DNA of 64,000 bases, taken from Chitinophaga pinensis. Lineage in GTDB: Bacteria > Bacteroidota > Bacteroidia > UKL13-3. Below the pieces are notes generated by a model that saw nothing but the letters and a program-made list of their open reading frames with translations, was not told where the DNA came from and did not search any database. Within the stretch, counting starts at the first letter, position 1. The number at the start of each line of letters is the position of its first letter. Where the stretch lies: NCBI GenBank assembly GCA_945860865.1, contig CAMARW010000001.1, positions 524,294 through 588,293 of the forward strand. Reading direction: 5' to 3'. Shown piece by piece: positions 994 through 64,000 of the stretch. Made by a program: the position numbers and the translations under genes.

Positions 994-1752
994 TTGTCAT
1001 TATTTAACAAAATATTCGGCACAAAAGGAATACCATCCAACACGGGTATTCCTTTTGTAAACCCCATTCATGTAGAGTTTCACTCGCACCTTATATTTGG
1101 GGTTGATGACGGCTGTGAAACCATAGACCAAAGCATTGAATTACTGCGCGATTTTGAACAATTAGGCATGAAAAAGGTAGTTACTACTCCACATGTAATG
1201 TCTGATTTTTACAAAAATAGTAAAGAAAATATCTATCCCCTCCGCGATCAAATTAGGCAACGTTTAAAGGAAGAAAACATACAAATAGAATTTGATGCCG
1301 CAGCAGAATACATGATTGACGATGGATTTGAAAAAAAGATAGCGGCAGGAGATTTACTCACCTTTGGAAAAGACAATAAACACATTTTAATTGAATTGCC
1401 TTTTATGAGCGAACCGCCCAATCTCAATGCTTGCTTGTTTGAACTCCAAATAGCAGGATATATTCCTGTGTTGGCGCATCCAGAAAGGTATTTATACTAT
1501 GCCAACGACCGTGAAAAATACATAGGTTTAAAAGAACGTGGTATTTTATTGCAATTAAATATACTCAGTTGCGTGGGTTATTATTCTAAGCCTGTGGCTG
1601 ATGCAGCAGAATATTTAGTGCTTAATAATTTAATAGATTTAGTTGGTTCAGACACGCACCACAAGCGCCACATGCAGATTTTACCTGATGCCATTCAGCA
1701 TAAAATTTATAGAAAAGTTTGTGAAGCCGAATTATTAAATAATTATTTATAA
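994..1752 (+). CDS. CpsB/YwqE-type PHP-family tyrosine-protein phosphatase
   Basis: EFHSHLIFGVDDGCET...LAHPERY...GSDTHHKRH motifs; apparent TTG start directly after the upstream stop. Confidence 0.75.
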   Translation: MSLFNKIFGTKGIPSNTGIPFVNPIHVEFHSHLIFGVDDGCETIDQSIELLRDFEQLGMKKVVTTPHVMSDFYKNSKENIYPLRDQIRQRLKEENIQIEFDAAAEYMIDDGFEKKIAAGDLLTFGKDNKHILIELPFMSEPPNLNACLFELQIAGYIPVLAHPERYLYYANDREKYIGLKERGILLQLNILSCVGYYSKPVADAAEYLVLNNLIDLVGSDTHHKRHMQILPDAIQHKIYRKVCEAELLNNYL

Positions 1753-1761
1753 ATGATAGGG

Positions 1762-1769
1762 TAAATTTG
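1762..1769 (+). promoter_or_regulatory. Candidate Bacteroidetes -7 box TAAATTTG
   Basis: Matches TAnnTTTG just upstream of the ATG at 1777. Confidence 0.35.
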
Positions 1770-1776
1770 CCCCATC

Positions 1777-3186: not shown

Positions 3187-3208
3187 AGGCAAATTTTAGT
3201 GCCATAAT

Positions 3209-5935
3209 ATGGATTCATTTTCTTATATTTCAAATGCCGACGTGTCGGCCATAGACAACCTACATCAGCAATACCTGCAAAATCCAGAAGCTGTTGATTA
3301 CGGTTGGCAGAAATTTTTTGAAGGTTTTGACTTTGGGTATAATCAACGTTTTGCCAATGGCAAAGTCACAGCAATTTCTGAAGATGCGTTAAAAGAAATA
3401 AATGTTCTTAACCTAATTCAAGGTTATCGTACACGCGGACATCTTTTTACTAAAACCAATCCCGTGCGCGAGCGCAGAAAATATTCCCCTACTTTGGCCA
3501 TTGAAAATTTTGGATTACAAGCCGCAGATTTAGAAAAAACTTTCACTGCCGGAGCCGAATTAGGCTTAGGTTCAGCCAAATTAAAGGATATTATTAGCCA
3601 CCTAGAACAAACCTACTGCCAGAGCATTGGCGCTGAGTTTATGTTTGTGCGCGAGCCGCAAAAATTAGCTTGGCTTAAAGCTAAAATGGAGAAATCTAAA
3701 AATACACCCCAATTAAGTATAGACGAAAAACGCCATATTCTTAGCAAGCTGAACCAAGCCACCGTTTTTGAAAATTTTTTACATACCAAGTTTGTGGGTC
3801 AGAAACGTTTTAGTTTAGAAGGACTCGAAACCTTGATACCTGCCTTAGAATTTGTTATTCAATATGGAGCAGATTTGGGCGTAGAAGAATTTGTGTTGGG
3901 CATGGCACACCGCGGAAGATTAAATGTATTGGCCAATATTTTAAATAAAACTTACGACGAAATTTTTAAAGAATTTGAAGGCAAATCTGCCGAAGATGAG
4001 GGTATTTTTGAAGGTGATGTGAAGTACCACATGGGCTTTGCCAGCGAAATTAATACCATCAACGGTAAAAAAGTGCGCTTAAGTTTAAGTCCTAACCCAT
4101 CTCACCTAGAAACAGTAAACCCAGTTGTAAAGGGAATTACACGTGCCAAATTAGAATACACCCACCAGCATGATATAGACAAAGTTGCTCCTATTTTAAT
4201 TCATGGTGATGCCTCGGTGGCCGGACAAGGAATTGTATACGAAGTATTACAAATGGCAGGTTTGCCAGCTTATTCGGTGGGAGGCTGTATTCATATTGTG
4301 GCCAATAATCAAATTGGATTTACCACCAATTACACCGATGCCAGAACGTCTACTTATTGTACCGATGTAGCTAAAACAACACTGAGTCCGGTTTTTCATG
4401 TAAATGCAGATGATGTAGAAGCAGTAGTGTATACCATTAAATTGGCAATGGAGTACCGCCAAGAATTTAACAGCGATGTGTTTATCGACTTGTTAGGGTA
4501 CAGAAAATATGGCCACAATGAAGGCGATGAGCCTCGTTTTACGCAACCTGTTTTATACAAAGCCATTGGTTCGCACCAAAACCCTAGAGAAATTTACAAC
4601 CAAAAACTTTTGGCCGCAGGCAGCGTAGAAGCCGAGCTAGCCAAAGAAATGGAAAAAGGATTTAGGGGTTTGCTGCAAGAAAAATTAGAAAAATCTAAGC
4701 TAGATAAACCAGCCAAGGTAAAGAATTTTGTGAAAGATATATGGGAAGGATTTAGACCTGCACTAGAAGCAGATTTTAACCAATCTCCTAATACGGCTGT
4801 AAACCAAGAATTGCTTATTACTTTGGCGCAACAGCTTACCACTTTACCCGAAAACTTTAATGCCTTCAGTAAAATTGCCAAATTAATGAAAGATCGCAAG
4901 GCAATGATTGAAAACAATAAATTGGATTGGGCTATGGGCGAGCTTTTAGCCTACGCTACCCTCAGCAATGAAGGGCATAATGTGCGCATGACCGGACAAG
5001 ATTGCGAACGCGGAACTTTTAGTCACCGCCATGCCATTATCAAAGGAGAAGATTCAGATAAAGCTTACAATACCTTTGATAGTTTAGGTTCAAATAAAAA
5101 AGCAAAAGTGCATTTCTACAACTCATTGTTGAGCGAATATGCCGTTTTGGGTTTTGAATATGGTTATAGCATGGTTACTCCCAACGATCTTACCATTTGG
5201 GAAGCACAATTTGGAGATTTTGCCAATGGTGCTCAAATTATAATCGACCAATATTTAGCCAGTGCTGCCACCAAATGGAAAACCTTTAGCGGTTTAACTT
5301 TGCTGCTGCCACATGGATACGAAGGACAGGGTCCAGAGCATTCTTCTGCTAGGTTAGAAAGATTTTTGCAACTTTGTGCCAATTACAATATGCAAGTTTG
5401 TAATATAACCACACCAGCCAATTACTTTCATGCTTTACGCCGACAATTAAAGCGCCAAGACCATCGCTTGCCATTGGTAGTTATGACGCCTAAAAGCTTA
5501 TTAAGACACCCTGCATGCGTAAGCAGTATAGCTGATTTTACCGAGCAAAAGTTTCAAGAATTAATAGATGATAGCAGTGCAGAAGTGAGCAAAGTAAAAC
5601 GCGTGCTTATGTGCAGTGGCAAAATTTATTTTGAATTGCTTGAACGCAAATTGGCAGATAATAGGAGTGATATAGCCTTGGTAAGGTTAGAGCAGTTATA
5701 TCCAATGCCTACGCAGCAAATAGAAGCCTTGCATAAAAAATACGCAGGTGCAGAGTTTTGTTGGGTGCAAGAAGAGCCTAAAAACATGGGTGCTTGGTTG
5801 CATTTATTGCGTTGGGAAAACAACATGAATTTAAAAAGAATCTCGAGAGAATCGAGCGCTTCGCCAGCCACAGGCTACAGCAAAGTGCATGCAATAGAGC
5901 AATTGGCTATTATAGATAAAGCCTTTGCACTTTAG
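3209..5935 (+). CDS. sucA: 2-oxoglutarate dehydrogenase E1 component
   Basis: 908 aa; GMAHRGRLNVLAN, HGDASVAGQGIVYE, LLPHGYEGQGPEHSSARLERFLQ motifs. Confidence 0.95.
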   Translation: MDSFSYISNADVSAIDNLHQQYLQNPEAVDYGWQKFFEGFDFGYNQRFANGKVTAISEDALKEINVLNLIQGYRTRGHLFTKTNPVRERRKYSPTLAIENFGLQAADLEKTFTAGAELGLGSAKLKDIISHLEQTYCQSIGAEFMFVREPQKLAWLKAKMEKSKNTPQLSIDEKRHILSKLNQATVFENFLHTKFVGQKRFSLEGLETLIPALEFVIQYGADLGVEEFVLGMAHRGRLNVLANILNKTYDEIFKEFEGKSAEDEGIFEGDVKYHMGFASEINTINGKKVRLSLSPNPSHLETVNPVVKGITRAKLEYTHQHDIDKVAPILIHGDASVAGQGIVYEVLQMAGLPAYSVGGCIHIVANNQIGFTTNYTDARTSTYCTDVAKTTLSPVFHVNADDVEAVVYTIKLAMEYRQEFNSDVFIDLLGYRKYGHNEGDEPRFTQPVLYKAIGSHQNPREIYNQKLLAAGSVEAELAKEMEKGFRGLLQEKLEKSKLDKPAKVKNFVKDIWEGFRPALEADFNQSPNTAVNQELLITLAQQLTTLPENFNAFSKIAKLMKDRKAMIENNKLDWAMGELLAYATLSNEGHNVRMTGQDCERGTFSHRHAIIKGEDSDKAYNTFDSLGSNKKAKVHFYNSLLSEYAVLGFEYGYSMVTPNDLTIWEAQFGDFANGAQIIIDQYLASAATKWKTFSGLTLLLPHGYEGQGPEHSSARLERFLQLCANYNMQVCNITTPANYFHALRRQLKRQDHRLPLVVMTPKSLLRHPACVSSIADFTEQKFQELIDDSSAEVSKVKRVLMCSGKIYFELLERKLADNRSDIALVRLEQLYPMPTQQIEALHKKYAGAEFCWVQEEPKNMGAWLHLLRWENNMNLKRISRESSASPATGYSKVHAIEQLAIIDKAFAL

Positions 5936-7213: not shown

Positions 7214-8513
7214 AACGGTATCTGTAAAACCATTTGTCGGCAAAACTTACACCAATATATACCCTAAAATAATTTTCCTGAACCAATCCATTTGCCACCG
7301 TACCGCGCTGCAACCATTCGGCTCCAATGTTTACCTTCGACTTGCTCTTAGCCATTGGTAGGCCCAAACCTGCATTAAAAGAGAGAATATCTACTCCGGT
7401 TCCATCTACAGACAAATTGCTTTGCTCATACCTAATTCCTGCTCGGTATTCTATGCGGGAAAAAAAGTTTTTCCCTTTAATGTTGGGCGTATAACTACCT
7501 CCCATGCTGCCGCCCAAACTATTACGCAAAGAATCGGTTGAACCAAAACTTCTGTAATCAGACCATTGTGTGCCGCGAATATCTGCGGCCAACAGCCACT
7601 TATCTTTTCTGGCTAAGCTAATACCTGCTTTAAAAGCGAGCGGAGAAACAATGGTTCCTAAAATGCCAGTTTCAGAAAAAATGGTATCACGTGTGCCGCC
7701 TTTACTGCCTATAGGCAAACTGCGCAACAAATAACTTTGCTCTGCATTAAGGTTAGAAAGAGGAGTTACCGTACCTCCTAATACCCATTCGTATTCGCGC
7801 AATTCGTTTTTTACAACACGTGTAAAAGTATCATGTATTTGAAGGCCAATATCGTAAACCCAACCATTTATATAGGTACGTTTATCCTCATTGGTATTAA
7901 ACATTCTGTACCCAGAAGGAATAAGTAGCTGAGTGGTATTGGTATTCTCGCCAAAAAGATAATTGGCGTTTATGCCTATGCTGGTAGTTCTGTGCAAGCG
8001 CATACCATAGCCCAAGTAAAACCTACTTAAACCGCCTCTACCTACAAAATTATAAAAAGCAGGTATGGAACCTGTATCGCCAGGCAAAGTAGTTTCTGAT
8101 TCAATATTGTACCCCAAACCAGAGAAAGGAGTTAGTCCGAAAGATACGCCTATGCCCTTTTTAACAGAAATGGGCAAAGCTAAATTAAGGTAGGCAATCC
8201 ATGCATTATTCACGCTGGCGCTGCTGGTATTGGTTGTAAATGTTCCTAAACTATAAGTAGCACCCGCCTCAATATTGGTGGTTTTAGTAGCAGAGTAGGA
8301 GGCAGGATTTAAGATATTAATGGCAAAAGGGTTTCTAATAGCTTGGTTGGTTTGCCCCATAGAGTAAGTGCTAGCATTGCCCGAGTATACCACATCTCCA
8401 ATACCTACAATAGAATAAGGAGATTTGGTAATATTTTGTGCCGTTACTAAAAAAGAGCAAGCCCAAATAACAGTAATAAAAGTAAAAACGAGCCTTTGGG
8501 CGCTATTTTGCAT
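7206..8513 (-). CDS. Outer-membrane beta-barrel protein
   Basis: Signal peptide; 'ITKSPYSIVGIGDVVYSGNASTYSMGQT' start typical of Bacteroidetes OM porin-like proteins; aromatic C-terminal strands. Confidence 0.6.
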   Translation of the reverse strand: MQNSAQRLVFTFITVIWACSFLVTAQNITKSPYSIVGIGDVVYSGNASTYSMGQTNQAIRNPFAINILNPASYSATKTTNIEAGATYSLGTFTTNTSSASVNNAWIAYLNLALPISVKKGIGVSFGLTPFSGLGYNIESETTLPGDTGSIPAFYNFVGRGGLSRFYLGYGMRLHRTTSIGINANYLFGENTNTTQLLIPSGYRMFNTNEDKRTYINGWVYDIGLQIHDTFTRVVKNELREYEWVLGGTVTPLSNLNAEQSYLLRSLPIGSKGGTRDTIFSETGILGTIVSPLAFKAGISLARKDKWLLAADIRGTQWSDYRSFGSTDSLRNSLGGSMGGSYTPNIKGKNFFSRIEYRAGIRYEQSNLSVDGTGVDILSFNAGLGLPMAKSKSKVNIGAEWLQRGTVANGLVQENYFRVYIGVSFADKWFYRYRYD

Positions 8514-9300
8514 GGTGAGTTAATATTTTATGTAATCCAAATAACAATAGATTTTCGTGTACAAATATGCTGGTTTTTATGCGTTTTGCCAACAATTGTG
8601 CATCACCACCTGTAAGTAAAATTTTTAGGTCCTTATTTGCCATACTATAATGGGCGCTTTGGTAGGCTATTTCTGCAATTATTCCGTAATAAGCACCGCT
8701 TAATAAACAGTCGTTGGTATTTTTACCCAGTAGATTTGGTTCAGCCATAAAAGTAGCTAAGGGAAGTTTTTCGGTAAAAGTGTGCATGGCTTGTAACCTC
8801 ATTTGTAAACCCGGACTAATACTTCCGCCCAAGTATTCCTCAGACGCAGAGAGCAGGTCGAAAGTTACACAAGTGCCAGCATCAATAATTAAGCATGGCT
8901 GATTCGGATAAAAATGCATGGCGGCTGCTACTAGTGCTTTTCTATCGGCGCCGAGTGTAGCTTTACTTTCATATAAATTTTTAAACGGCAAGGCAGTATC
9001 CGCATTAAGCCAATGTATGTTACAAGGCAAATTTGGCGGCATACTTGCTACTAATTTCCCGCTAACATCACTTATAAGCACTTGGTTTATTTGGTCTGAA
9101 CCTATCCAAGCACTCAAAGATTCCCAAAAGTCTTCATAGGTAATCATCTGTTGATGCAATAAGGCATCATGACTAAACATGGCCATCTTAACTCGGGTAT
9201 TCCCCGCATCTACAACGATTGATTTTTTATTACTCATGATATTATTGCTTGAACCAATTTTTATGCAAATATTACAATTGTGGGGGGATTTTACTATCAT
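8503..9300 (-). CDS. coaX: Type III pantothenate kinase
   Basis: VVDAGNTRVKMA, LGADRKALVAAA, LIIDAGTCVTFDLL, GGSISPGLQMR, LTGGDA motifs; true start is probably MSNKKS. Confidence 0.9.
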   Translation of the reverse strand: MIVKSPHNCNICIKIGSSNNIMSNKKSIVVDAGNTRVKMAMFSHDALLHQQMITYEDFWESLSAWIGSDQINQVLISDVSGKLVASMPPNLPCNIHWLNADTALPFKNLYESKATLGADRKALVAAAMHFYPNQPCLIIDAGTCVTFDLLSASEEYLGGSISPGLQMRLQAMHTFTEKLPLATFMAEPNLLGKNTNDCLLSGAYYGIIAEIAYQSAHYSMANKDLKILLTGGDAQLLAKRIKTSIFVHENLLLFGLHKILTHHAK

Positions 9301-9377: not shown

Positions 9378-10149
9378 AAAGGATTAATTTGATTTCCTTG
9401 TTTGCGTAACTTTTTATTTCGTCGTTTTGCAAAATGTGTATACGACCTTTTTTATCTATGCCTAAAATTTCTCCAATAAATGTTTCCCCATTTTTTTCGA
9501 AAACTGCAGGCTCACCTTTGGCAAATAAATGGGTATGGTATAATTCCCACAGAGGTTCTCTTTTATTGCCCAAGAGCAATGCATAATAATGTGTGAGTTT
9601 CTCGCACAATAGTGTTCGCGCGTGGTTTGGGTCGACTTTAACTTTTGTAAAATTAAAAATGGAAGCAGCTTGAGGTGTGTTAAACGATTCTTGGTTTAGG
9701 TTTAAACCGATACCTATGATGGCCATGCGAATGCGGTTGCCTTGCAAAACATTTTCTATGAGTATGCCGGCCACTTTCTTTTTTTGGATAAAAATATCGT
9801 TGGGCCATTTTATAAAAACGGGCTCCTGGCAGAGTGCTGCAACGGTGTCTCTGAGGGCTAAACTGCATACCAAATTGAGCCAAATTTGCTCTTCAGCTAA
9901 TAAAAATTGAGGCTTCAAATAAATGCTTAAAAGCAGGTTTGAACCAAATTCCGACTCCCAAGTATTTTGCATTTGTCCGCGGCCCTTGCTCTGATATTGC
10001 GTGTGCACTAAGGCGCCTTCAGGCACATTGGTGCTGTTAATCAAAAGCTTAAGCTCATCATTGGTGGAAGTTGTTTGCTCCAAATACACAGAATATGCGC
10101 CGATATTTATAGGTTGGTGTGCCAAAGAAAAATGCTTATTTTGCGTCAA
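9376..10149 (-). CDS. birA: Biotin--[acetyl-CoA-carboxylase] ligase
   Basis: TSTNDELK, SKGRGQMQNTWES, WPNDIFIQKKKVAGILIE, GIGLNLNQ motifs. Confidence 0.9.
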   Translation of the reverse strand: MTQNKHFSLAHQPINIGAYSVYLEQTTSTNDELKLLINSTNVPEGALVHTQYQSKGRGQMQNTWESEFGSNLLLSIYLKPQFLLAEEQIWLNLVCSLALRDTVAALCQEPVFIKWPNDIFIQKKKVAGILIENVLQGNRIRMAIIGIGLNLNQESFNTPQAASIFNFTKVKVDPNHARTLLCEKLTHYYALLLGNKREPLWELYHTHLFAKGEPAVFEKNGETFIGEILGIDKKGRIHILQNDEIKSYANKEIKLIL

Positions 10150-10745: not shown

Positions 10746-12431
10746 ATGTTAAGAAAACTCGTACTCAGTACCCTTGGATTATTTTTAATTGGAAGCATTG
10801 CTTTAGCACAAGAAGGTGAAAAGAAAGCGGAAAAAGGCGAATTCTCTGGTAATTTTCAAACTACCAATCAGTTTTATGTGAAAGATTCGGCCATTGGAGC
10901 AACTACTACGCAGTATCAAAGAGAATTATCATCGGCAGATGCATGGCTTTTACTTAACTATAAAATAAGTGGCTACACTTTTACGGCCCGTTTCGATTTA
11001 TTCAATAACTCTCCTTTGTTAAATCCGCAAGAAGCTTATACGCGTAGTGGCCTGGGAATATACAGTGTGCGCAAAGACATAGATAATTTGAGTATCACTG
11101 CCGGATATTTTTACGATCAATTTGCCAGTGGAATGGTATTTAGGGCATTTGAAGACCGTAACTTAGGTTTAGATTTTGGGGTTCAAGGCGTGCATGTAAA
11201 ATATACGCCAACCGAGAATACCACAATTAAAGCTTTTACAGGTTTACAAAAGTTTAGGTTCGATTTACGTCCTGTTGTGCTTAAAGGTGCCAATGCAGAA
11301 CATCATTTTGGAATAACAGAAAATTTTAGTTTAGAGCCGGGTGTAAGCATTGTAAATAGAACCATCGATCAAAATACAATGAATGTGATGGCCGCAACCA
11401 TCAATAATTATAAATTGGAGCAAAGATTTAATCCAACATATAATGTATTTGTATATAATGTTTACAATACTTTGCGTTACAAAAACCTATCGTGGTATTT
11501 AGAATTGGCCGAAAAAACTCCAGAAGCCATTGTAAATCCTAATAATGATTTAATGGAATTACATAAAGGAAAAGCCTATTTAACCTCTTTAAGTTATTCG
11601 CAAAAAGGGTTTGGGGTAAATGCACAATATAGGTACATAGACCGCTTTTCTTTAAGGACTTCTCCTTTAGAAAATCAAAACTTAGGTATGATTGCTTATT
11701 TACCATCTGTAACCCGCCAAAATGTATATCGCTTGTTGGCCCGTTACAATGCCTTTACCCAAGAGTGGGGCGAAAATGGTTTTCAACTCGATTTAACCTA
11801 TAAGCCTAAAGCTTTAAAAAAGTATCAAACCCAACTCAATTTTAATACGTCAATTACTACACCGCTAGGAAGTTTTCAAGGGAATACGGTTAACCCAGTT
11901 AATTTTGAGGCCGATTCTAACCGATACTTTAGAGAGTATTATGTAGAATTACAGCATAAGTTTACCAAGAAGTTTAAATTATTGTTGGGCTATCAATTAA
12001 TAAACTATAACCAGCGTTTATTTGAAGCTAAACCAGGTGTACCTTATGTAGTAGCTAATACTATTTTTGGAGAAGCAACGTATAAATTAAGTAACAATAA
12101 ATCTATTCGCATAGAAACCCAATATTTAGAAACCAAACAAGATCTAGGAAGCTTTGTAAATGGGTCTGTAGAACTTAACATTGCGCCACACTATTCATTT
12201 AGTTTTGGAGATATGGTAAATGTAAAACCTGGTGCAAGAAATAAACCAAGTGGAGAAAATAAATTTGAATTGGTTCATTACTGGAACGTATTTGGTGCGT
12301 TTACTTTTAAAAGCACCCGATTTACAGGAGGCTATATAAAACAAGTTGAAGGTGTAAATTGCACAGGTGGCGTGTGTAGGGTTGAACCAGCTTTTAGCGG
12401 TGTTAGGCTAACATTAATGACAAATTTTTAA
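10746..12431 (+). CDS. DUF6029-like outer-membrane protein
   Basis: Signal peptide, long beta-barrel-like sequence, operon with an Omp28-like gene. Confidence 0.55.
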   Translation: MLRKLVLSTLGLFLIGSIALAQEGEKKAEKGEFSGNFQTTNQFYVKDSAIGATTTQYQRELSSADAWLLLNYKISGYTFTARFDLFNNSPLLNPQEAYTRSGLGIYSVRKDIDNLSITAGYFYDQFASGMVFRAFEDRNLGLDFGVQGVHVKYTPTENTTIKAFTGLQKFRFDLRPVVLKGANAEHHFGITENFSLEPGVSIVNRTIDQNTMNVMAATINNYKLEQRFNPTYNVFVYNVYNTLRYKNLSWYLELAEKTPEAIVNPNNDLMELHKGKAYLTSLSYSQKGFGVNAQYRYIDRFSLRTSPLENQNLGMIAYLPSVTRQNVYRLLARYNAFTQEWGENGFQLDLTYKPKALKKYQTQLNFNTSITTPLGSFQGNTVNPVNFEADSNRYFREYYVELQHKFTKKFKLLLGYQLINYNQRLFEAKPGVPYVVANTIFGEATYKLSNNKSIRIETQYLETKQDLGSFVNGSVELNIAPHYSFSFGDMVNVKPGARNKPSGENKFELVHYWNVFGAFTFKSTRFTGGYIKQVEGVNCTGGVCRVEPAFSGVRLTLMTNF

Positions 12432-12435
12432 GGAT

Positions 12436-53266: not shown

Positions 53267-53284
53267 GTATACAAAGTTATTCTT

Positions 53285-53345
53285 TTTGATATTAACAAAT
53301 AAAAAAAGCGGGCTTAGCCCGCTTTTTTTATTTGTTAATATCAAA
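53285..53345. terminator. 61-bp near-perfect palindrome/terminator, 30-bp arms, 1-nt centre
   Basis: TTTGATATTAACAAATAAAAAAAGCGGGCT-T-AGCCCGCTTTTTTTATTTGTTAATATCAAA; right arm includes the accC stop and last codons. Confidence 0.95.
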
Positions 53346-54674
53346 GGTATTCATGAAGGCTGTGGTGAAATTACCCTTCTTAAAATCTTCGTTTTGCATC
53401 AATTTTAATGCTAAGGGAATGGTTGTTTTTAATCCCGGACCCTCAATGATAAACTCTCCTAGGGCTCTTTCCATTTTGATAATGGCTTCATCTCTAGTTT
53501 GGGCTGTAACAATCATTTTAGCAATCATACTATCGTAATTACTTGGAATAGTATATCCAGCGTAAATGTGTGTATCAACCCGCACACCATGACCGCCTGG
53601 TTTGTGTAGGTAATCTATTCTGCCTGGAGTAGGTCTAAAGTTATTGTTTGGATCTTCTGCGTTTATGCGCACTTCTATAGAATGACGTGATGGGTAATAA
53701 TTTCTACCACTTATTGGAACACCTGCTGCAATCAAAATTTGTTCCTTAACTAAGTCAAAATTAATTACTTCTTCTGTAACAGGATGCTCCACTTGGATGC
53801 GCGTATTCATCTCCATGAAATAAAAATTCCTGTGCTTATCCACTAAAAATTCAATAGTACCTAAACCTTCGTAACCAATGGCTGAGGCTCCTGCAATGGC
53901 AGCTTGTCCCATTTTTTCACGTAATTCATCGGTCATAAAAGGAGAAGGACTTTCTTCTACTAATTTTTGGTGTCTTCTTTGAATAGAGCAGTCTCTTTCA
54001 GATAGGTGGCAAACTTTTCCGTATTGATCTCCAGCTAACTGAATTTCTATATGACGTGGTTCTTCTACATATTTTTCCATGTAGATACCATCATTTCCAA
54101 AGGCCGCTAAAGATTCTTGTTTGGCACTGTCCCAGTGTTTTTCAAATTCTTCATCTGCCCAAATAATGCGCATGCCTCTGCCGCCGCCACCGGCGGTTGC
54201 TTTAATAATTACAGGATAGCCAATTACCTTAGCAATTTCTCTTCCCTCTGCGGCATCTTTTAATAATCCATCTGAGCCAGGTATAACGGGAACACCCGCT
54301 TTTTTCATCGTATCTTTGGCGTTAGATTTATCTCCCATGGAGTTAATCATTTCTGGACTAGCGCCAATAAATTTGATGCCGTGTTCTCTACAAACTTGAG
54401 AGAATTTTGCGTTTTCAGATAAAAAACCGTAGCCAGGGTGAATGGCATCTGCATTGGTTATTTCTGCAGCAGCAATAATATTGTTAATGCTTAAGTACGA
54501 TTGTGCAGAGGGTGGAGGCCCAATACAAACAGCTTCATCTGCAAACCTTACATGCAAACTTTCTTTATCTGCTGTAGAATAAACTGCAACCGTTTTTATG
54601 CCCATTTCACGAGCGGTACGTATTATCCTTAATGCTATTTCGCCTCGGTTGGCAATGAGTATTTTTTTAAACAT
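53328..54674 (-). CDS. accC: Acetyl-CoA carboxylase biotin carboxylase subunit
   Basis: [47 protein letters not shown]. Confidence 0.96.
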
Positions 54675-54725
54675 TTAAAAGCTAATTAATGGAACGTTAT
54701 GAATAAAACCCTGCCTAGCAGAAAC

Positions 54726-55196
54726 CTATTTAGGTTCAACCAAAAACAAAGGTTGGTCGTACTCAATAGGTGAAGCATTGTCGGCTAAAATTTTAACGAT
54801 TTTACCAGAAACCTCTGATTCAATTTCGTTGAATAATTTCATAGCTTCTACAATGCACAAAACCTGACCCACTTTTATTTCATCACCAATCTGAACAAAA
54901 GCAGGTTTATCTGGCGAAGCAGATTTATAATAAGTACCAATCATTGGAGATTTAATGGTAATTAAGTTGCTTGCAACCTCAGTATGGTGAGATTCCATTT
55001 TTTCTGTTGGTGCAGCAGCCACAACTGGCGCTGGTGCCGGTGCTGAGTAAGTTACTGGCGCTGATTGTTGCACAAGTACTGTTTTCTCATCTGTTTTTTT
55101 AATGGCCAATTTAAAATCGCCACGTTCTACCTCAACTTCAGAAACTCCTGATTCTGAAACCAGTTTAATAAGTTCTTTTATTTCTTTTAATTCCAT
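54726..55196 (-). CDS. accB: Acetyl-CoA carboxylase biotin carboxyl carrier protein
   Basis: IKSPMIGTYYKSASPDKPAFVQIGDEIKVGQVLCIVEAMKLFNEIE. Confidence 0.95.
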   Translation of the reverse strand: MELKEIKELIKLVSESGVSEVEVERGDFKLAIKKTDEKTVLVQQSAPVTYSAPAPAPVVAAAPTEKMESHHTEVASNLITIKSPMIGTYYKSASPDKPAFVQIGDEIKVGQVLCIVEAMKLFNEIESEVSGKIVKILADNASPIEYDQPLFLVEPK

Positions 55197-55277
55197 AAGA
55201 ATATCTATTTATAACAATCAAATTTATTCAAAAAAACCAATTGGCAATACCAATATTTAAAATTTTTATAATTTATA

Positions 55278-56279
55278 TTAGTTTGGTGTATCGTAGGCCC
55301 ATTTAAGATAGATTGCTCCCCAAGTAAATCCACCTCCAAAAGCGGCTAAAACGAGGTTGTCACCTTTTTTTAGTTGTTTTTCCCACTCCCATAAACAAAG
55401 TGGCAAAGTACCATTAGTGGTATTACCAAAATGGTCTATATTAATCATTACTTTCTCTTTATCAATACCCATTCTTTCTGCAGTTGCATCTATAATGCGC
55501 AAGTTGGCTTGATGTGGAACTAACCAAGCAATATCGTCTGGGGTTAAATGATTGCGTTCCATTATTTGAGCAGAAACATCTGCCATTCCTTTTACTGCAA
55601 ATTTAAAAACAGATTTACCATCCTGATAAACAAAATGTTCTCTGTTGTCTATTGTTTGGTAAGTTGATGGTTTAAGTGACCCTCCTGCTTTTTGATGCAA
55701 GAAGTGTCTTCCTGATCCATCCGATTTTAGAACAGCATCTATAATGCCATTCCCTTCGTAGTTGGGTTCAAGTAAAACAGCCCCGCAACCATCTCCAAAA
55801 ATAATGCAGGTGTTGCGATCTGTGTAATCTATAATAGACGACATTTTGTCGCCACCTACAACCAAAACTTTCTTATATTTACCAGATTCTATAAAACTAC
55901 TTGCTGTTTGCAAAGAGAATAAGAAGCCAGAACATGCGGCCATTAAATCGTAAGCAAATGCATTTTTTGCACCAATTTTATCTGCCAAAATACAAGCGGC
56001 AGAAGGAAAAATTAAATCAGGGGTTACGGTAGCAAATATAATTAAATCAATTTCTTCAGCATTAATTCCTCTCTTAAGTAGTAAGCCATTCACTGCTTCC
56101 ACAGCCATATCAGATGTGGCTAAATTAGGGTCTTTTAAAATGCGTCTTTCTTTGATGCCTGTTCTAGATGTAATCCATTCATCACTTGTTTCTACTAATA
56201 ACTCTAACTCTTTGTTAGTTAATACATCTGGTGGTACATAGCCATGAATGGCAGTAATTGCGGCAGTTATTTTGTTCAT
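55278..56279 (-). CDS. fabH: Beta-ketoacyl-ACP synthase III
   Basis: [47 protein letters not shown]. Confidence 0.95.
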
Positions 56280-57238
56280 TATTGTGCTGTAGGAACTAAA
56301 TCTTTAAAAGCATTTTGTATAATCTGAATCAAGTTAGAATCTACTACTTGCTTGGCAGAGAATAACATATTTTTAAAAGCTTTTGCATTAGAAATTCCGT
56401 GGCCAATAATTACGGGTGCATTAACGCCCATGATAGGTGTTCCACCAAAATTTTCATAGTTAAAACTTTCTAGATAATCATCTTGTATGCCACGCTTACG
56501 CAATGCAAAATACATAGATTCAAGAGATTTTAATACTACATTACCCGTAAAGCCATCGCATACTATAACATCAACTTTATCTGAGATTATATCTCTACCT
56601 TCAATGTTTCCAATAAAATTAAATTGGTTGGTATCCTCCATTATTTGGTGGGCAGAAATAGTAACTAAATTACCTTTTTCTTTTTCTTCACCAATACTTA
56701 ATAAGCCTACTTTTGGGTTTGCTACTTTGTGCACGTGCTGTAAAAGCAAAGAGCCTAAAATACCAAACTGGTTTAATACATCTGGTTTGCAATCTGCATT
56801 TGCCCCTACATCTAGCAGTAATCCAACCCCACCATGAGCCTTTGGCACCATGGCAGTAACACAAGGACGAATTACGCCTTCGATTGGTTTTACTGAAAAC
56901 ATAGCTCCAACTAGCATTGCTCCCGTATTTCCAGCACTTACAAAAGCACTGATTTCTTTTTTTGCTAAAAGGCCAAAGCCTACGGATATGCTAGAATCTT
57001 TCTTTTGCGAAATGGCTTTGGTTGGATGTTCGCTCATGCCAATTACCTCGCTAGTATGAACAAAATCAAAATCCTCTGTGTTTCCACCTTGTTCTAGCAA
57101 TTGTTGTTTGGCTTGTTCAATATCTCCAATAAGGACAATACGAACATCGCTTCCCATCTCTTGATTAGCAATTATCGCACCCGCAATTGCTTCTTTTGGA
57201 GCATAATCGCCCCCCATGATATCAAAACCAATCTTCAT
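56279..57238 (-). CDS. plsX: Phosphate acyltransferase PlsX
   Basis: [46 protein letters not shown]. Confidence 0.95.
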
Positions 57239-57269
57239 TAAGCAGAATTTTTGCTAGTTATGCGGTTTA

Positions 57270-57455
57270 TTAAATGTCTTTTTGCATCTCAGGGAAAGCC
57301 AACTTACCTTTGTAGTAACCACCAGCGGTAACACGGTGACGAAGATGTGATTCGCCTGAAGTTGGATCTACAGATACTGTTGGATTAGCTCCTTTGTAAT
57401 GCGTTCTGCGCTTATCGCGTCTTGCGTTTGAGATTTTGCGTTTTGGATTAGGCAT
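57270..57455 (-). CDS. rpmF: 50S ribosomal protein L32
   Basis: MPNPKRKISNARRDKRRTHYKGANPTVSVDPTSGESHLRHRV. Confidence 0.95.
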   Translation of the reverse strand: MPNPKRKISNARRDKRRTHYKGANPTVSVDPTSGESHLRHRVTAGGYYKGKLAFPEMQKDI

Positions 57456-57475
57456 TTGATATGTCTCCTTTTATT

Positions 57476-58024
57476 TTAATTTAGTAAATCTTTTAATTTA
57501 TCCCAACGAGGATCAGCTTTTTGAATGCTTTCTTCCTCTTTGGTGTCTTCTTTTTCTTCTATTTCAATCTGCCCCAATCTGTTTAATACATCTTGGTTGC
57601 AGGGTTTAGGCTCAGGTAAAACTTCACAGTTTTTCTTTTGAGGAATGGATAACAATAAACTTTCATATAAATATTGCTTCAAATCAAATTCAATTTCTGT
57701 TCTAGCAATATATATAATCTCTGTGTCGTCAAAATTATTTGCCTCACTTAATTTCATCATTAAGTTAAACTTTTCGTTCAAGGGCAAATCAATATTTTCA
57801 GCACAGGTATCACAATCTACCCTCGCATTTCCTTTAAATACAAACTTAAAATCATACATTGAGTCTGTTTTGTATAGTTTTAAATCTACCTTAACCTTCG
57901 CATGCGAAAGGGGAGCAAATTCAAATTCTGCCAACAACTCTTCGTCAAGCATAAATTCAAATTCATTTAAACCCAATACAAGTTTGTTGAATTCAATTAG
58001 GTATGCTTTTGTTTTAGTTCCCAT
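57476..58024 (-). CDS. DUF177/YceD family protein
   Basis: VDCDTCAENIDLPLNEKF; canonical position upstream of rpmF. Confidence 0.85.
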   Translation of the reverse strand: MGTKTKAYLIEFNKLVLGLNEFEFMLDEELLAEFEFAPLSHAKVKVDLKLYKTDSMYDFKFVFKGNARVDCDTCAENIDLPLNEKFNLMMKLSEANNFDDTEIIYIARTEIEFDLKQYLYESLLLSIPQKKNCEVLPEPKPCNQDVLNRLGQIEIEEKEDTKEEESIQKADPRWDKLKDLLN

Positions 58025-58150
58025 TTTAAATAGCTGGCAAATATAAGCATTGCTTATAAAAATCTAAATGTTTTTTGAAAAACAACTGATAATCACAAGG
58101 CTAATTTGAAAATTAGTATGGTTTTTAGCAGCTAAATAGCAATAAACTAA

Positions 58151-59221
58151 TTAAAAATCAATTCTGAATCTTTCTCTTTTACCCGGATTTAGTGGCAATG
58201 GATTTGCGTTTATTTCAGTAAAATTATTTCTACGGGCCCAAATATCAATTGCCATAAACAAGGCATTGCGCATAGATTGTTCGCTGGCCTCATTTTTTCC
58301 GGCAATGGCATAAGCTGTTCCATGATCAGGCGAAGTGCGCACAAAGGGTAATCCCGCTGTTACGTTTACGCCAGAATCAAAAGCAGCATATTTAAATGGC
58401 ACCAAACCTTGGTCGTGGTACATAGCCAAAATCCCATCAAACTGTTTATATTGGTTCGAACCAAAAAAACCATCTGCTGGGTATGGGCCAAATACAAACA
58501 TTTGATTTTCGCCTTTCGCTTTTTCTATGGCTGGAATAATAATATCTTTTTCTTCTGAACCTAATAATCCATTATCTCCCGCGTGCGGGTTAAGTCCTAA
58601 AACTGCAATTCGGGGTTTAGAAATACCAAAGTCTCGCTGCAAGCTCTGTCTTAATAATCCTATTTTTTTATAAATACCTTCAACACTTAGCTGGGATGCC
58701 ACATCTTTTACAGGTAAATGTCCGGTTGCCAATGCCAACTTTAAATCATCCGAAGCAAGAACCATTAAATGGTCTGTACCTGCCTGTTGGGCAAGGTATT
58801 CTGTATGGCCCACAAAAGGCAATTCGGGTGTATTAACTGTGTTTTTATTTAGGGGAGCTGTAACAATCGCATCAATTTTTCCTGCCAATGCATCTTTAGT
58901 TGCCAAGGCAAGCGCTTTAAAGGCGTATTGGCCAGCTAGGGCCGTGGCTTCACCTATTTTTATTTCTGTTTCTTCTTCCCAACAAGTTAAAATATTAGCT
59001 TTTTTAGGATTAATTTGGTCGATGTGTTTAATTATATTGAGCTGAAAATCATTTAGATTTAGTACTTTTCTCCAAAATGAAATTATTTTTGGAGAACCAT
59101 AAACAACTGGTGTGCAATAATTTAATATGCGGTTGTCGTTTAATGTTTTTATTAGTACTTCAACGGCAATACTATTCATATCGCCAATTGTTATGCCTAT
59201 AATAGGTAATCTGTGTGTCAT
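58151..59221 (-). CDS. pdxA: 4-hydroxythreonine-4-phosphate dehydrogenase
   Basis: PIIGITIGDMNSIAVEVLIK, GHTEYLA, LGLNPHAGDNGLLG, MYHDQGLVPFK. Confidence 0.93.
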   Translation of the reverse strand: MTHRLPIIGITIGDMNSIAVEVLIKTLNDNRILNYCTPVVYGSPKIISFWRKVLNLNDFQLNIIKHIDQINPKKANILTCWEEETEIKIGEATALAGQYAFKALALATKDALAGKIDAIVTAPLNKNTVNTPELPFVGHTEYLAQQAGTDHLMVLASDDLKLALATGHLPVKDVASQLSVEGIYKKIGLLRQSLQRDFGISKPRIAVLGLNPHAGDNGLLGSEEKDIIIPAIEKAKGENQMFVFGPYPADGFFGSNQYKQFDGILAMYHDQGLVPFKYAAFDSGVNVTAGLPFVRTSPDHGTAYAIAGKNEASEQSMRNALFMAIDIWARRNNFTEINANPLPLNPGKRERFRIDF

Positions 59222-60655
59222 TTATTTGCTCAATTTTTTAACGAAATTAAATAATAATCTCACGCCTACTGCAGTTCCGTGTTTACCTCTATAACTGTCG
59301 GCTACATTTAAATAAGCTGGACCAGCAATGTCGAAATGCATCCATGGATAATTGGTAAACTTCTCTAAAAACTTGCCGGCGGTAATGGCTCCGCCAATTG
59401 GGCCACCAATATTTTTCATGTCAGCTAAATCGCTATTGATAAGTTTGGCATAATCCTCCCAAAATGGAAATTCTACCAATCGTTCATGGGTAAGCTTTCC
59501 TGTATCTATTAGTGATTTTTTAATTTCTTCACTAGCTGTTCCCATAAAAACAGTTCCGTATGAGCCAATTGCTGCCGCTGCTGCTCCGGTAAGCGTAGCA
59601 AAATCTAAAACCAAACTAGGTTCGTATTTTTTAGCGTAGGCGAGGGCATCGCCCAAAAGCATTCTTCCCTCTGCATCTGTATTTAAAACTTCAACCGTTT
59701 GCCCATCATACATTTTTACCACATCGCCGGGTGTATAGGCATTTTCTCCAGGTCTGTTATCTGTTGCAGGTATTAGTGCAATAACATAATAGGGTAATTT
59801 TGCTTTGGCTATGGCGCATATGGCGGCAGCTACAGCAGCTCCACCTGCCATATCACACTTCATCGTATCCATAGAATTGGGTGTAGGTTTTAAACTCAAT
59901 CCACCCGTATCATAAACAACACCTTTGCCAACTAAAACCAATGGTTTTTTGTTTTTAGCTAATTTTGGTTTGTATTCTAAAATGGTAAAAGTTGGCGGTG
60001 TTTTGCTTCCCTGGTTAACGGATAACAATCCACCCATTTTTAAAGTCTCAATTTGCTTTTTATTCAGTATTTCACAAGCAACCCCAGCATCTGTTGCCAT
60101 CGACTTCATTTCTTTAGCAAAAACAACTGCTGTTAAATGTGATTGCGGTTCATTTACCCATGTTCTGGCCGTAAATACAGCATCAACTAAAATTTGAAGC
60201 GTTTCTAAATCTTTCTTTTGTACACCAATAATTCCAATACTGTTTAAGGTGTTAGTTTGTTTTTTATCTGATTTGTATTTTAAAAACTGGTAATTGCTAA
60301 GTGCTAAACCTTCTGCTATTGCTAATGTAAAATTTTCATTTGATGCAGCATGAATACATACGTTTTTATATTGGTGCGCATTCAATGCAGCACAAATCTT
60401 ATTGCCTAAATTCCTGTAATTTTCTAATTGTTCTGCCTCTGTTTTTTTCTTCCAATCTTCGGTAAACTGAATAAAAGTAAGTTGTGAAAATTGATTGATT
60501 AAAATGTAACTTTCTTTGGCTACTTGTTTTTTTGCAACGTAGGCAAGCTCTTCTTTATTTAAATTCCACTGCGATAATTCTTTAGCATTATTAACTAAAA
60601 TTACTTGAGATTGATCTTTTAGAACTTTGGTTTGCGCATTTATTTTTGTGTTCAT
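59222..60655 (-). CDS. pepA: M17 leucyl aminopeptidase family protein
   Basis: VLVGKGVVYDTGGLSLKP, MDTMKCDMAGGAAV, NTDAEGRMLLGDAL. Confidence 0.92.
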   Translation of the reverse strand: MNTKINAQTKVLKDQSQVILVNNAKELSQWNLNKEELAYVAKKQVAKESYILINQFSQLTFIQFTEDWKKKTEAEQLENYRNLGNKICAALNAHQYKNVCIHAASNENFTLAIAEGLALSNYQFLKYKSDKKQTNTLNSIGIIGVQKKDLETLQILVDAVFTARTWVNEPQSHLTAVVFAKEMKSMATDAGVACEILNKKQIETLKMGGLLSVNQGSKTPPTFTILEYKPKLAKNKKPLVLVGKGVVYDTGGLSLKPTPNSMDTMKCDMAGGAAVAAAICAIAKAKLPYYVIALIPATDNRPGENAYTPGDVVKMYDGQTVEVLNTDAEGRMLLGDALAYAKKYEPSLVLDFATLTGAAAAAIGSYGTVFMGTASEEIKKSLIDTGKLTHERLVEFPFWEDYAKLINSDLADMKNIGGPIGGAITAGKFLEKFTNYPWMHFDIAGPAYLNVADSYRGKHGTAVGVRLLFNFVKKLSK

Positions 60656-60950
60656 AAAATTTAAAATTTATAAGTTAAGCTGCTGTTTTTTTACTAAACA
60701 AGCAGCAATATTAACCAATTAAATCCAAATATATAATACAAAAAAGGGTTTTGAAAACCAGAATTGTAATCTAAAAGTCGTTAATTTGTCAATATTTTTC
60801 AACCTTTTCAAAAATAATTTTTAAAATGGGTTGATTACTTAAATTTGATTTGTTTTTGAAAAACTGTTTTTGTTCTAAATAAGAATAATGTGTCAATTTT
60901 TCAGAAACTATCAATTAAAAACTTAAATTTTATAGATAAAACCTTTCTAT

Positions 60951-61736
60951 TTGCAGAACATGATACAGTTAGTTAGGGCCAAAAAATACCTGGGGCAGCA
61001 TTTTCTTGTAGACCAGCAAATTGCTTCTCACATTGTGGAAGCACTGGTAAATGTATTTCCAGCAGGAAAAGTAATGGAGGTGGGCCCAGGAATGGGTGTG
61101 TTAACTCAGTTTTTATTGCCAGAAAAGCAATTAGAAATTTGGGCAGCAGAGGTTGATGCTGAATCTGTTAGTTTTCTTTTAGCTAATTATTCTAAATTAA
61201 GTGAGCGTTTGCTCCAAGAAAGTTTCTTAGAAATTAATCTTAGTAATTTATTCCCCCATGGAGTTTCTATTATTGGTAATTTCCCTTACAACATTTCCTC
61301 ACAAATTATTTTTCATATTTTAGAGCACAGGGCAAATATTCCTTTTATGGTTGGGATGTTTCAAAAAGAAGTTGCCGAGCGAATTGGTGCTGTTAAAGGA
61401 GGAAAGGAATACGGTATTATCTCGGTTATTACCCAAGCTTATTATGACGTAGAATATTTATTTACGGTTCCTGAACATGTTTTTAATCCTCCTCCTAAAG
61501 TAAAATCAGGTGTTATTCGTTTAACTCGAAAAGCCATTGGCCTAAACTGTGATGAGATTTTGTTTAGGAAAGTTATAAAAACAGCATTTAATCAAAGAAG
61601 GAAAAAACTGAGAAATGCAATATCTACCTTAGGTTTATCGGATGAAGTCTTAGGAGAATTTGCCTCAAAACGCGCAGAGGAATTGTCTGTTGATGATTTT
61701 ATTGTATTAACAAATTTAGTAGCTAACCAAGGATAA
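60951..61736 (+). CDS. rsmA: 16S rRNA dimethyladenosine transferase
   Basis: KKYLGQHFLVDQQIA, EVGPGMGVLTQFLL, GNFPYNISSQIIF. Confidence 0.94.
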   Translation: MQNMIQLVRAKKYLGQHFLVDQQIASHIVEALVNVFPAGKVMEVGPGMGVLTQFLLPEKQLEIWAAEVDAESVSFLLANYSKLSERLLQESFLEINLSNLFPHGVSIIGNFPYNISSQIIFHILEHRANIPFMVGMFQKEVAERIGAVKGGKEYGIISVITQAYYDVEYLFTVPEHVFNPPPKVKSGVIRLTRKAIGLNCDEILFRKVIKTAFNQRRKKLRNAISTLGLSDEVLGEFASKRAEELSVDDFIVLTNLVANQG

Positions 61737-63088
61737 TGGAAAAAATTCAAGTAAACAACGCGCTGCTAAAGCAATTTAAGGTATGGTTTCAAGAAGGTAA
61801 TTTAGCCGATTTGCATAACCAATTGGGGCAAATGTATCCGCAAGATATAGCTGCTGTTATTGATCGTTTGAATACAGAGGAAGCTCGGAAAGTGATGAAT
61901 GCACTGGATAAAGAAGCGGTAGTAAAAGTATTAGTAGAAACAGAGCAAGAAGCCCGCGAGCAGTTTTTATCGGCCTACTCCTCTTATGAAATTGCCAATG
62001 AGTTCATCGAAAAAATGAATAGCGATGATGCGGCATACATACTCAATCATTTTTCCAATAATAAAAAGGAAGAAATTATTGCCAAACTGCATGATATTGA
62101 ATATGCAAGCAGCCTGCTAGAGCTAATTAGCTATGAAAATGAAACTGCCGGAAGTTTAATGGCACTTGAGTTAGTTAAGGCTTATGAAGATTGGTCTGTT
62201 AAAAAATGTATCGAAGAAATTAGAATACAAGCCGAAAATGTGGAGAGCATTTTGGTGGTATATGTAGTTGATGATTTGGAAAGATTGAAGGGTATAATCA
62301 CACTCAAAAATCTTATTCTGGCCGATCCTAATGAACAGATTCAAAAACTTTTCAATAAAGAGGTAATCTCGGTTTCAACATCTGCCCCAGTTGATGAAGT
62401 AGCTAATCTTACAAAAAAATACGATTTAATGGTTTTGCCAGTGGTGGATCCTTTGGGCAGGTTGGTTGGCCGAATTACCATTGATGATGTGGTAGATTTA
62501 ATTAAAGATGAAGCCGACGAGGATTACCAGCTAATGAGTGGTATTACCGAGGATGTTGACCCAACAGATAAAGTTTGGATTTTGTCTCGCGCTCGTTTGC
62601 CATGGCTAATTATTGGTTTATTTGGGGGTATTGCAAGTTCACGTTTTCTGGCTCTTTATGAAGGTCAAATAATGATTCATCCAGAAATGGCTTTTTTTAT
62701 CCCTATGATTGCGGCTATGGGCGGAAATGTTGGTGTGCAATCTTCCGCCATTGTGGTGCAGGGTATAGCCAACGATACTTTAGGTACTAAAAATATAGGT
62801 CAAAAAATATTAAAAGAATTGCGGGTTGCCTTATTAAATGGAATTATTTGTTCTTTACTCATTTTGTTTTACAATTTAGCCTTTCAAGACTCTTATGAAC
62901 TAGCACTTACCGTAAGTTTTGCCTTATTAACAGTTATTATATTTGCTTCTATTTTTGGTACTTTTATTCCTATGGTTTTAAACCAAATGAAAATAGATCC
63001 AGCGTTGGCTACCGGTCCTTTTATAACCACAAGCAATGATTTATTGGGCATTGTTATCTATTTTTCAATTGGTAGGTTACTGTATTAA
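61736..63088 (+). CDS. mgtE: Magnesium transporter MgtE
   Basis: MgtE N-domain, CBS pair (MVLPVVDPLGRLVGRITIDDVVDLI), AAMGGNVGVQSSAIVV, GPFITTSNDLLGI. Confidence 0.94.
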   Translation: MEKIQVNNALLKQFKVWFQEGNLADLHNQLGQMYPQDIAAVIDRLNTEEARKVMNALDKEAVVKVLVETEQEAREQFLSAYSSYEIANEFIEKMNSDDAAYILNHFSNNKKEEIIAKLHDIEYASSLLELISYENETAGSLMALELVKAYEDWSVKKCIEEIRIQAENVESILVVYVVDDLERLKGIITLKNLILADPNEQIQKLFNKEVISVSTSAPVDEVANLTKKYDLMVLPVVDPLGRLVGRITIDDVVDLIKDEADEDYQLMSGITEDVDPTDKVWILSRARLPWLIIGLFGGIASSRFLALYEGQIMIHPEMAFFIPMIAAMGGNVGVQSSAIVVQGIANDTLGTKNIGQKILKELRVALLNGIICSLLILFYNLAFQDSYELALTVSFALLTVIIFASIFGTFIPMVLNQMKIDPALATGPFITTSNDLLGIVIYFSIGRLLY

Positions 63089-63139
63089 GTTTTTTAAAAT
63101 ACCCGTGCAACCTTCTATTAATTTTTAATAACTATTGCA

Positions 63140-64000
63140 ATGAATGAAGTTTTAAACCCTGAACCAATTACCTTGAATGTACTCATCGTTGATGATTTAC
63201 ATCCATGCTTAATGGAGGGTTTAAGTAAACATGGCTGCAAAGTTCTTTATTTGCCAGATGCAAATCGGGCAGAAATTTTAGCAGCACTTCCTAATAAAGA
63301 TGTACTCGTTATTAGAACTAAAACCATAGTAGATAAAGCCTTATTGGATCAGGCCAACGCTTTAAAAATTATAGCAAGGGCAGGGGCAGGTATGGATAAT
63401 ATAGATTTGTTTGAAGCTGAAAAGAGAAACATAACATGCTTTAATGCAGGGGAGGCAAATTCTGATGCGGTAGCAGAACAGAGTCTTGCCATGTTATTAA
63501 TGCTCTTAAACAATTTATTTAGGGCAAACCAACAAGTAAAAGCAGGAATTTGGCAACGCGAAGCTAATAGAGGCATTGAACTTGCTGGTAAAACGGTGGC
63601 TATTATTGGTTATGGAAATACTGGAAGTGCCTTTGCTTCCAAGCTTTCTGCTATGAAAGTTAAAGTGCTTGCTTATGATAAATACCGCTCAAATTTTGGG
63701 AATAGTCTGGTGCAAGAATGTACCTGGAAAGAGATATTTGAATTAGCAGATATACTCAGTTTCCATGTTCCTTTAACAAATGAAACAAAATACTATTTTA
63801 ATAGCTCCTTGCTGAACCAATTTAAAAAAAACATTTTCTTGCTCAATTTGAGTAGGGGAAAAGTGGTCAATACGAAAGATTTATTGCTGGGCTTGAACCA
63901 AGGAAAAATTTTGGGTGCTGCATTGGATGTACTCGAAAATGAACAGCTAAATTTATTAAATACGGAAGAAAAAATCTTGTTTGAACAGCTCTGTAAACAC
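63140..64000 (+). CDS. serA: D-3-phosphoglycerate dehydrogenase-like D-2-hydroxyacid dehydrogenase, truncated by window end
   Basis: Translated by eye: MNEVLNPEPITLNVLIVDDLHP...RAGAGMDNIDL...KTVAIIGYGNTGSAFA...; no stop before 64000. Confidence 0.75.
   Translation, partial: MNEVLNPEPITLNVLIVDDLHPCLMEGLSKHGCKVLYLPDANRAEILAALPNKDVLVIRTKTIVDKALLDQANALKIIARAGAGMDNIDLFEAEKRNITCFNAGEANSDAVAEQSLAMLLMLLNNLFRANQQVKAGIWQREANRGIELAGKTVAIIGYGNTGSAFASKLSAMKVKVLAYDKYRSNFGNSLVQECTWKEIFELADILSFHVPLTNETKYYFNSSLLNQFKKNIFLLNLSRGKVVNTKDLLLGLNQGKILGAALDVLENEQLNLLNTEEKILFEQLCKH

Follow-up and report, generated by a model that had tools for sequence, protein, structure and literature searches.

The 64,000-nucleotide stretch of Chitinophaga pinensis DNA analyzed here (assembly GCA_945860865.1, contig CAMARW010000001.1, positions 524,294 to 588,293 of the forward strand; hereafter the window) carries many dispersed copies of a short word, TNGGTTCARVCCRA, built around the core GGTTCA. 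The word exceeds codon-aware expectation, is maintained by evolution, is confined to a single genus, and takes the form of dialects within that genus. It is tentatively interpreted as a genus-specific, dialect-forming self-recognition word, most likely read during the uptake or recombination of free DNA.

An exact count over both strands of the window yields 33 copies of TTGGTTCA/TGAACCAA (14 + 19), 19 copies of TTGGTTCAG (7 + 12), and 79 copies of GGTTCA/TGAACC (44 + 35). A first-pass annotation of the same DNA had reported these three totals, together with composition-only expectations of 2.5 and 26 that are likewise correct, and had described the orientation as not fixed, in agreement with the 14 + 19 split of TTGGTTCA/TGAACCAA. 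Its list of start positions is accurate except for two entries, 20095 and 28306, for which the true positions are 20085 and 28305. The source assembly (2.59 Mb, 13 contigs, 99.9% complete) contains 518 copies of TTGGTTCAG, distributed as 263 and 255 by strand, versus 17 copies of the control word read backwards, and 982 copies of TNGGTTCARNC versus 45 of the reversed control. Such a many-fold excess on both strands, amounting to hundreds to thousands of copies, is characteristic of uptake words.

The excess was evaluated against a null in which synonymous codons were permuted within each gene, such that every protein and the codon usage of each gene were preserved. Genes were called with our own simple codon-model caller; the coding sequences of the window were shuffled 500 times, and a 464-kb sample, which represents 18% of the genome and includes the window, was shuffled 100 times. 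In the window, TTGGTTCA is found 31 times versus 6.7 expected (maximum 16), TTGGTTCAG 19 times versus 1.5 (maximum 6), and TNGGTTCA 55 times versus 13.3 (maximum 28). The corresponding values in the 464-kb sample are 186 versus 43.5 (maximum 59 in 100 shuffles), 89 versus 9.6, and 357 versus 84, and the GGTTCA family is the top over-represented family of 7-, 8-, and 9-mers in this sample. Copies occupy all reading frames except one, which is empty and would place an in-frame stop. The excess is thus unexplained by codon or peptide usage. That the word acts at the DNA level and reflects no peptide motif had been proposed in the first-pass annotation, and is backed by the codon null, by the use of all allowed frames, and by the synonymous-site conservation described below. 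Neither a genome-wide frequency equal to the codon-aware expectation (as judged from genome-wide counts and the null on the 18% sample) nor an enrichment in one reading frame or protein family was observed, copies being present in every stop-free frame.

The fuller form of the word consists of TNGGTTCA followed by R-V-C-C-R-A, i.e., TNGGTTCRRVCCRA, an imperfect 14-bp dyad of the type TNGG...CCNA. The first base is strictly T, with A, C, or G at this position giving 0.8-, 0.7-, and 1.0-fold representation, respectively. The second base is free: TAGGTTCA, TCGGTTCA, TGGGTTCA, and TTGGTTCA are enriched 4.8-, 4.3-, 3.6-, and 4.2-fold. Downstream, R and V are preferred, followed by CC placed one or two bases past the A, and the extension occurs at both spacings (TNGGTTCANCC, 12-fold, and TNGGTTCANNCC, 10.5-fold over the codon null); the extended form TNGGTTCAGCC reaches 20-fold. 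The half-sites TNGG-N5/6-CCNA, with a free base in each, are found 150 versus 91 and 192 versus 95 times, and the left half lacking the right-half C (TNGGTTCANNB) is still enriched 4.7x. The two free bases vary independently of each other (complementary in 28 pairs versus 27.3 expected), which argues that the word is not a hairpin. No single-mismatch neighbor is specifically depleted, and neither are these neighbors depleted as a group relative to V-start baselines. Some near-misses are mildly enriched, such as TNGGTTCG (1.97 versus a baseline of 0.80), as would be expected of a word that drifts and is gained with a bias. The free second base and the 14-bp dyad, like the confinement to one genus and the dialects, are features beyond those in the first-pass annotation.

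Maintenance of the word was examined in alignments of sister genomes (118 high-scoring segment pairs, 280 kb in all) by a codon-stratified test, since identity profiled position by position over the first 44 sites was too noisy. Synonymous third positions that fall on the fixed bases of the word are conserved in 267 of 352 cases (76%) versus an expectation of 178 (51%) based on the same codons where they lie outside words, with a z of about 10 that overstates the evidence because the several sister pairs do not supply independent sites. At the free base, which serves as the internal control, 49 of 80 synonymous positions are conserved versus 44.2 expected (z 1.2), and the contrast with the fixed positions is clear. 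One-mismatch control words show flat or weak conservation, and full conservation is seen for 30% of words versus 13% of composition-matched control words. Evolution therefore maintains the word as a DNA sequence, and the check suggested in the first-pass annotation, namely whether substitutions between sister genomes preserve the word, gives a positive answer at fixed synonymous sites and a negative one at the free base. Within the clade carrying dialect A (see below), sequences that are 79% identical have 51 of 82 aligned words in common; individual positions turn over, such that density rather than place is maintained.

Along the genome, the spacing of TNGGTTCA is near-Poisson, with a mean of about 1.15 kb, a coefficient of variation of 1.1, and a variance/mean ratio of 1.19 in 5-kb bins. 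Both gene strands carry the word (196 sense, 161 antisense), and no bias between leading and lagging strands is seen (170:155, p = 0.44), with strands assigned by GC skew measured locally over stretches of 20-64 kb, not by a closed replichore map. TTGGTTCA is rarer in intergenic DNA (0.27/kb) than in coding DNA (0.44/kb). This lower intergenic density and the free bases that do not covary led to rejection of a hairpin or terminator. Collectively, the near-Poisson spacing and the lack of polarity, covariation, and intergenic preference make Chi or FtsK-orienting polar (KOPS) sites, terminators, and regulatory sites unlikely.

The distribution of the word was determined by counting TNGGTTCARNC across whole genomes, all of which are drafts. 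Enrichment is observed in 18 of 18 genomes of the genus, with 201-2283 copies versus 18-93 for the reversed control. In an order-level search, which reached this family only, the other 13 genera lie at or near background, one of them (g7) being weakly raised, and among 247 genomes of 141 genera sampled across the class, the members of the genus alone stand out. The word is confined to this one genus, which is mostly freshwater and uncultured; among its relatives, those that have named records are Bacteroidota assembled from metagenomes, and isolate names point to freshwater lakes or reservoirs as the origin of several.

Within the genus, three dialects (…TCAGCC, …TCAAACC, and …TCGAACC) are distinguished by the codon null on 14 to 464 kb per genome. 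Dialect A, TNGGTTCAGCC, is found in G000, G001, G006, and G014; dialect B, TNGGTTCAAACC, in G004, G007, G009, and G013; and dialect C, TNGGTTCGAACC, in G010 and G012. In the two dialect C genomes, TNGGTTCG is enriched 7.3- and 5.8-fold and GGTTCGAAC is found 18 versus 0.7 and 22 versus 0.8 times. Mixed A and C forms are seen in small samples of G002, G003, and G005, and the word signal of G015 is weak. The dialects broadly follow phylogeny. In an unrooted two-gene tree (ahcY and recA) of 17 genomes, the dialect A genomes form one clade together with G005, the dialect B genomes group with G017, G015, and G018, and the dialect C genomes are sisters, grouped with G002 with weak support. A concerted, site-by-site switch from TNGGTTCA to TNGGTTCG was considered on the aligned sites, which are few.

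An orientation-free, Poisson-spaced, genus-bound, dialect-forming, and maintained word has the same appearance as the DNA uptake sequence (DUS) and the uptake signal sequence (USS), and an uptake-type reading is favored for this reason. Own-kind DNA would be preferred by means of the word during uptake or recombination, with a surface or periplasmic DNA-binding protein favoring word-bearing DNA. Transformation with DNA from kin would then slowly convert near-matches into words and shield existing ones, such that the word would accumulate wherever coding tolerates it, and drift of the word-reading protein could give rise to dialects. By analogy with Riemerella, the import route would be pilus-independent and might comprise ComEC, an outer-membrane β-barrel, a helix-hairpin-helix (HHH) protein, and DprA.

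The search for uptake machinery gave a mixed answer to the suggestion in the first-pass annotation that ComEA, ComEC, and type IV pilus genes be sought. ComEC and proteins with HHH_3, a ComEA-like domain, are present in all genus genomes searched, whereas the type IV pilus ATPase (PF00437; T2SSE/PilB/PilT-type) has no true match in them; the same search matches 14 of 14 reference genomes. Uptake by a type IV pilus was accordingly rejected, and the word-reading machine would be a non-pilus one. In known DUS systems, the word is read by a pilin, ComP. A surface protein of ~820 amino acids, sorted by the type IX secretion system and containing Ig-like and weak OB-fold/DUF5689 regions, adjoins ssb and recA and is conserved in the genus (L228, L230, L231, and L245). 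As a word-reading protein, this DUF5689-like candidate was rejected, being family-wide and present also in word-free genera; no informative solved relative was found for it.

Several of these observations weigh against an uptake-type reading. The pilus ATPase is missing from the genus genomes searched, ComEC and HHH proteins are so widespread as to be uninformative, and the occurrence of the ~820-residue protein in genera without the word makes it no obvious word-reading protein. The word forms an imperfect dyad and shows no intergenic enrichment, whereas many DUS and USS are non-dyad and enriched between genes. In addition, genes of atypical codon usage, taken as a rough proxy for import, carry the word at no lower density, although recently acquired DNA should contain few copies of an uptake word. 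Uptake, one of the options raised in the first-pass annotation, nonetheless fits best, with the classical DUS-reading machine missing.

The most serious alternative, which is possible but judged unlikely, is a weakly selected, genome-wide site for a dimeric chromosomal protein that acts in nucleoid organization, in connection with replication, or in recombination. The two subunits would contact the dyad of TNGGTTCRRVCCRA, and the dialects would reflect drift of that protein. The half-site dyad with its free base in each half, the absence of hairpin covariation, the palindromic TTCGAA center of dialect C (as in GGTTCGAAC), and the conservation at synonymous sites are all consistent with such a site. 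The number of sites (about 1,000 or more in a genome), their near-Poisson spacing, and the turnover of their positions argue against it, as do the enrichment of the left half TNGGTTCA without the right-half C and the two right-half spacings, which are unusual for a rigid dimer. A polar recombination or segregation site resembling Chi or KOPS, another suggestion of the first-pass annotation, is very unlikely: the copy number is high, as it would be for such sites, and Haemophilus Chi also has a degenerate internal base, but the lack of a GC-skew strand bias (170 leading, 155 lagging) disfavors it and the imperfect dyad symmetry makes a polar reading improbable.

In a further alternative, which is improbable, an orphan methyltransferase together with repair would ratchet near-matches into a word of little function, as may be the case for the highly iterated palindrome HIP1 of cyanobacteria. 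HIP1 is comparable in that it occurs in high copy number and its lineage replacements are linked to methyltransferases (PMC4390886), dialect C is near-palindromic, and the enrichment is located in coding DNA. A one-mismatch ratchet should, however, deplete single-mismatch neighbors, and none is specifically depleted, which also removes support for the repair bias proposed in the first-pass annotation and for single-mismatch repair of the VSR type. Dialects A and B are not true palindromes. A strong match to the N6/N4 methyltransferase family PF01555 is found in 4 of 16 genus genomes (G000, G001, G009, and G015), a pattern too patchy for a common driver; C5 and type I/IIG enzymes lie outside this search. 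Separately, G031, a genome from another family, has nine N6/N4 methyltransferase matches, far above the other relatives searched. Finally, an artefact of codon usage, peptide usage, or mutation bias can be practically dismissed: TTGGTT/AACCAA is mildly common genome-wide (941 versus 576), but the codon-shuffle null is exceeded about 4-10 fold in all allowed frames, a V-start control word stands at 1.0x, and the word is absent from sister genera of similar GC. A peptide or codon artefact is ruled out by the synonymous shuffles.

Comparison with known systems places the self-recognition reading in context. Similar to the DUS, whose dialects follow the Neisseriaceae tree, the word has a short strict core with a softer flank, about a thousand or more copies, occurrence in coding DNA, and phylogeny-following dialects (PMC3630211). 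The main differences are that the genus belongs to another phylum, that its searched genomes yielded no type IV pilus ATPase, that its word is an imperfect dyad with a free base and is not intergenic-enriched, and that this word is known from sequence alone. The USS resembles the word in its density and in having no orientation bias; it is pilus-dependent and a non-dyad 9-mer unrelated in sequence. Dialects are also known for the Pasteurellaceae USS (PMC12616744). HIP1 shares high copy number, (near-)palindromic form, and lineage replacements with the word (PMC4390886), but it is perfectly palindromic over 8 bp and is linked to orphan methyltransferases, whereas dialects A and B are not palindromic, only dialect C nears a TTCGAA center, and the one methyltransferase family searched, PF01555, is not conserved in the genus. 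Riemerella, also a member of the Bacteroidota, is transformed without a pilus by a set of proteins that includes ComEC, an HHH protein, and an outer-membrane barrel (PMC8459023), and in Riemerella columbina own DNA competes in transformation while an equal amount of foreign DNA does not (PMC7965970). The genus likewise has ComEC and HHH proteins and no pilus ATPase found; the k-mer counts made for R. columbina, in contrast, listed only A/T-rich words as candidates (PMC7965970).

Six copies of the word in the window show the full dyad: TAGGTTCAGGCCAA (14089-14096), TAGGTTCAAACCGA (20731-20738), and TTGGTTCAGGCCAA (45470-45477) on the forward strand, and TTGGTTCAAACCAA (1823-1830), TAGGTTCAGACCAA (9097-9104), and a second TTGGTTCAGGCCAA (35211-35218) on the reverse strand. 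The remaining forward-strand copies begin with TGGGTTCA (259-266; free second base), TTGGTTCAGACACG (1643-1650), TAGGTTCAGCCAAA (3567-3574), TAGGTTCAAATAAA (5085-5092), TTGGTTCAGCCATA (8736-8743), TTGGTTCATTACTG (12270-12277), TGGGTTCAATCAAA (16538-16545), TTGGTTCACGTTAC (17415-17422), TCGGTTCATAACAG (17500-17507), TTGGTTCAAACCAG (19447-19454), and TTGGTTCAACTTGT (20085-20092), continue with TGGGTTCAAGAAGC (21367-21374), TAGGTTCATCTAGC (23271-23278), TAGGTTCAAACAAT (24827-24834), TAGGTTCAGCAAGG (25152-25159), TCGGTTCAGCCCGC (27557-27564), TTGGTTCAGACAAT (28305-28312), TTGGTTCAAATAAA (33864-33871), TTGGTTCAGCCCAA (34638-34645), TGGGTTCAAACAGG (36225-36232), TTGGTTCAGGACTT (37503-37510), and TAGGTTCAAACAAA (37736-37743), and end with TTGGTTCAAATAGA (42250-42257), TGGGTTCAAACCTG (44963-44970), TTGGTTCAGACAGA (46125-46132), TTGGTTCACCATAA (52077-52084), TAGGTTCAACCAAA (54731-54738), and TGGGTTCAAGTAAA (55763-55770). 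On the reverse strand, TTGGTTCAGCCAAA is present twice (2825-2832 and 12936-12943), and is accompanied by TTGGTTCAGCTTGC (3750-3757), TTGGTTCAGGAAAA (7279-7286), TTGGTTCAACCGAT (7539-7546), TTGGTTCAAGCAAT (9250-9257), TTGGTTCAAACCTG (9940-9947), TTGGTTCAGAACGT (16012-16019), TAGGTTCAGCCAGA (18837-18844), TAGGTTCAAAAAAA (19849-19856), TTGGTTCAGGCCGA (20432-20439), TTGGTTCATCATGC (20923-20930), TAGGTTCAAGAATA (23040-23047), and TTGGTTCAAACCGG (24928-24935). Further along this strand lie TAGGTTCACCACAT (28782-28789), TAGGTTCACCAAGA (28929-28936), TGGGTTCATGCCAA (35790-35797), TAGGTTCAGATTAT (39033-39040), TTGGTTCAGGGCCA (40185-40192), TTGGTTCAGCCGAA (42504-42511), TGGGTTCAACCAAA (47157-47164), TTGGTTCAGCCAGA (52342-52349), TAGGTTCAGAAGAA (58556-58563), TTGGTTCAGGGTTT (63160-63167), TTGGTTCAGCAAGG (63813-63820), and TTGGTTCAAGCCCA (63894-63901). 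An 11-kb region of core genes (52350-63150; accC/accB/fabH/plsX/pdxA/pepA/ksgA-like) contains zero TTGGTTCA and only three TNGGTTCA.

Other signals were noted in the 464-kb sample. Among 6-mers, the palindrome TGCGCA exceeds the codon null most strongly (378 versus 136) and forms a second signal at the DNA level, with no relation to GGTTCA. Avoidance is seen for the palindromes CATATG, AGATCT, TGATCA, ATCGAT, and AACGTT, each with a z of about -8 to -9, a restriction-like pattern. A separate repeat, ACGAATTACGA/TCGTAATTCGT, lies almost exclusively between genes (26 of the 30 copies of ACGAATTACG), and ACGAATTACG is hugely in excess (30 versus 0.4 expected).

A literature search found nothing on uptake words in Bacteroidota and, for the word itself, a single paper on an unrelated subject. 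With more reserve than is attached to the self-recognition reading as such, the word may represent a pilus-independent, dialect-forming self-uptake word in Bacteroidota, and hence a third independent origin of a DUS-like system after Neisseriaceae and Pasteurellaceae. If the word is instead read by a chromosomal protein or arises through repair, it would provide a non-cyanobacterial comparison for the open question of HIP1. If the self-recognition reading is correct, self-tagging of DNA would arise repeatedly, with different word-reading machines, and the word would help to track down the machine that imports DNA across the outer membrane in Bacteroidota.

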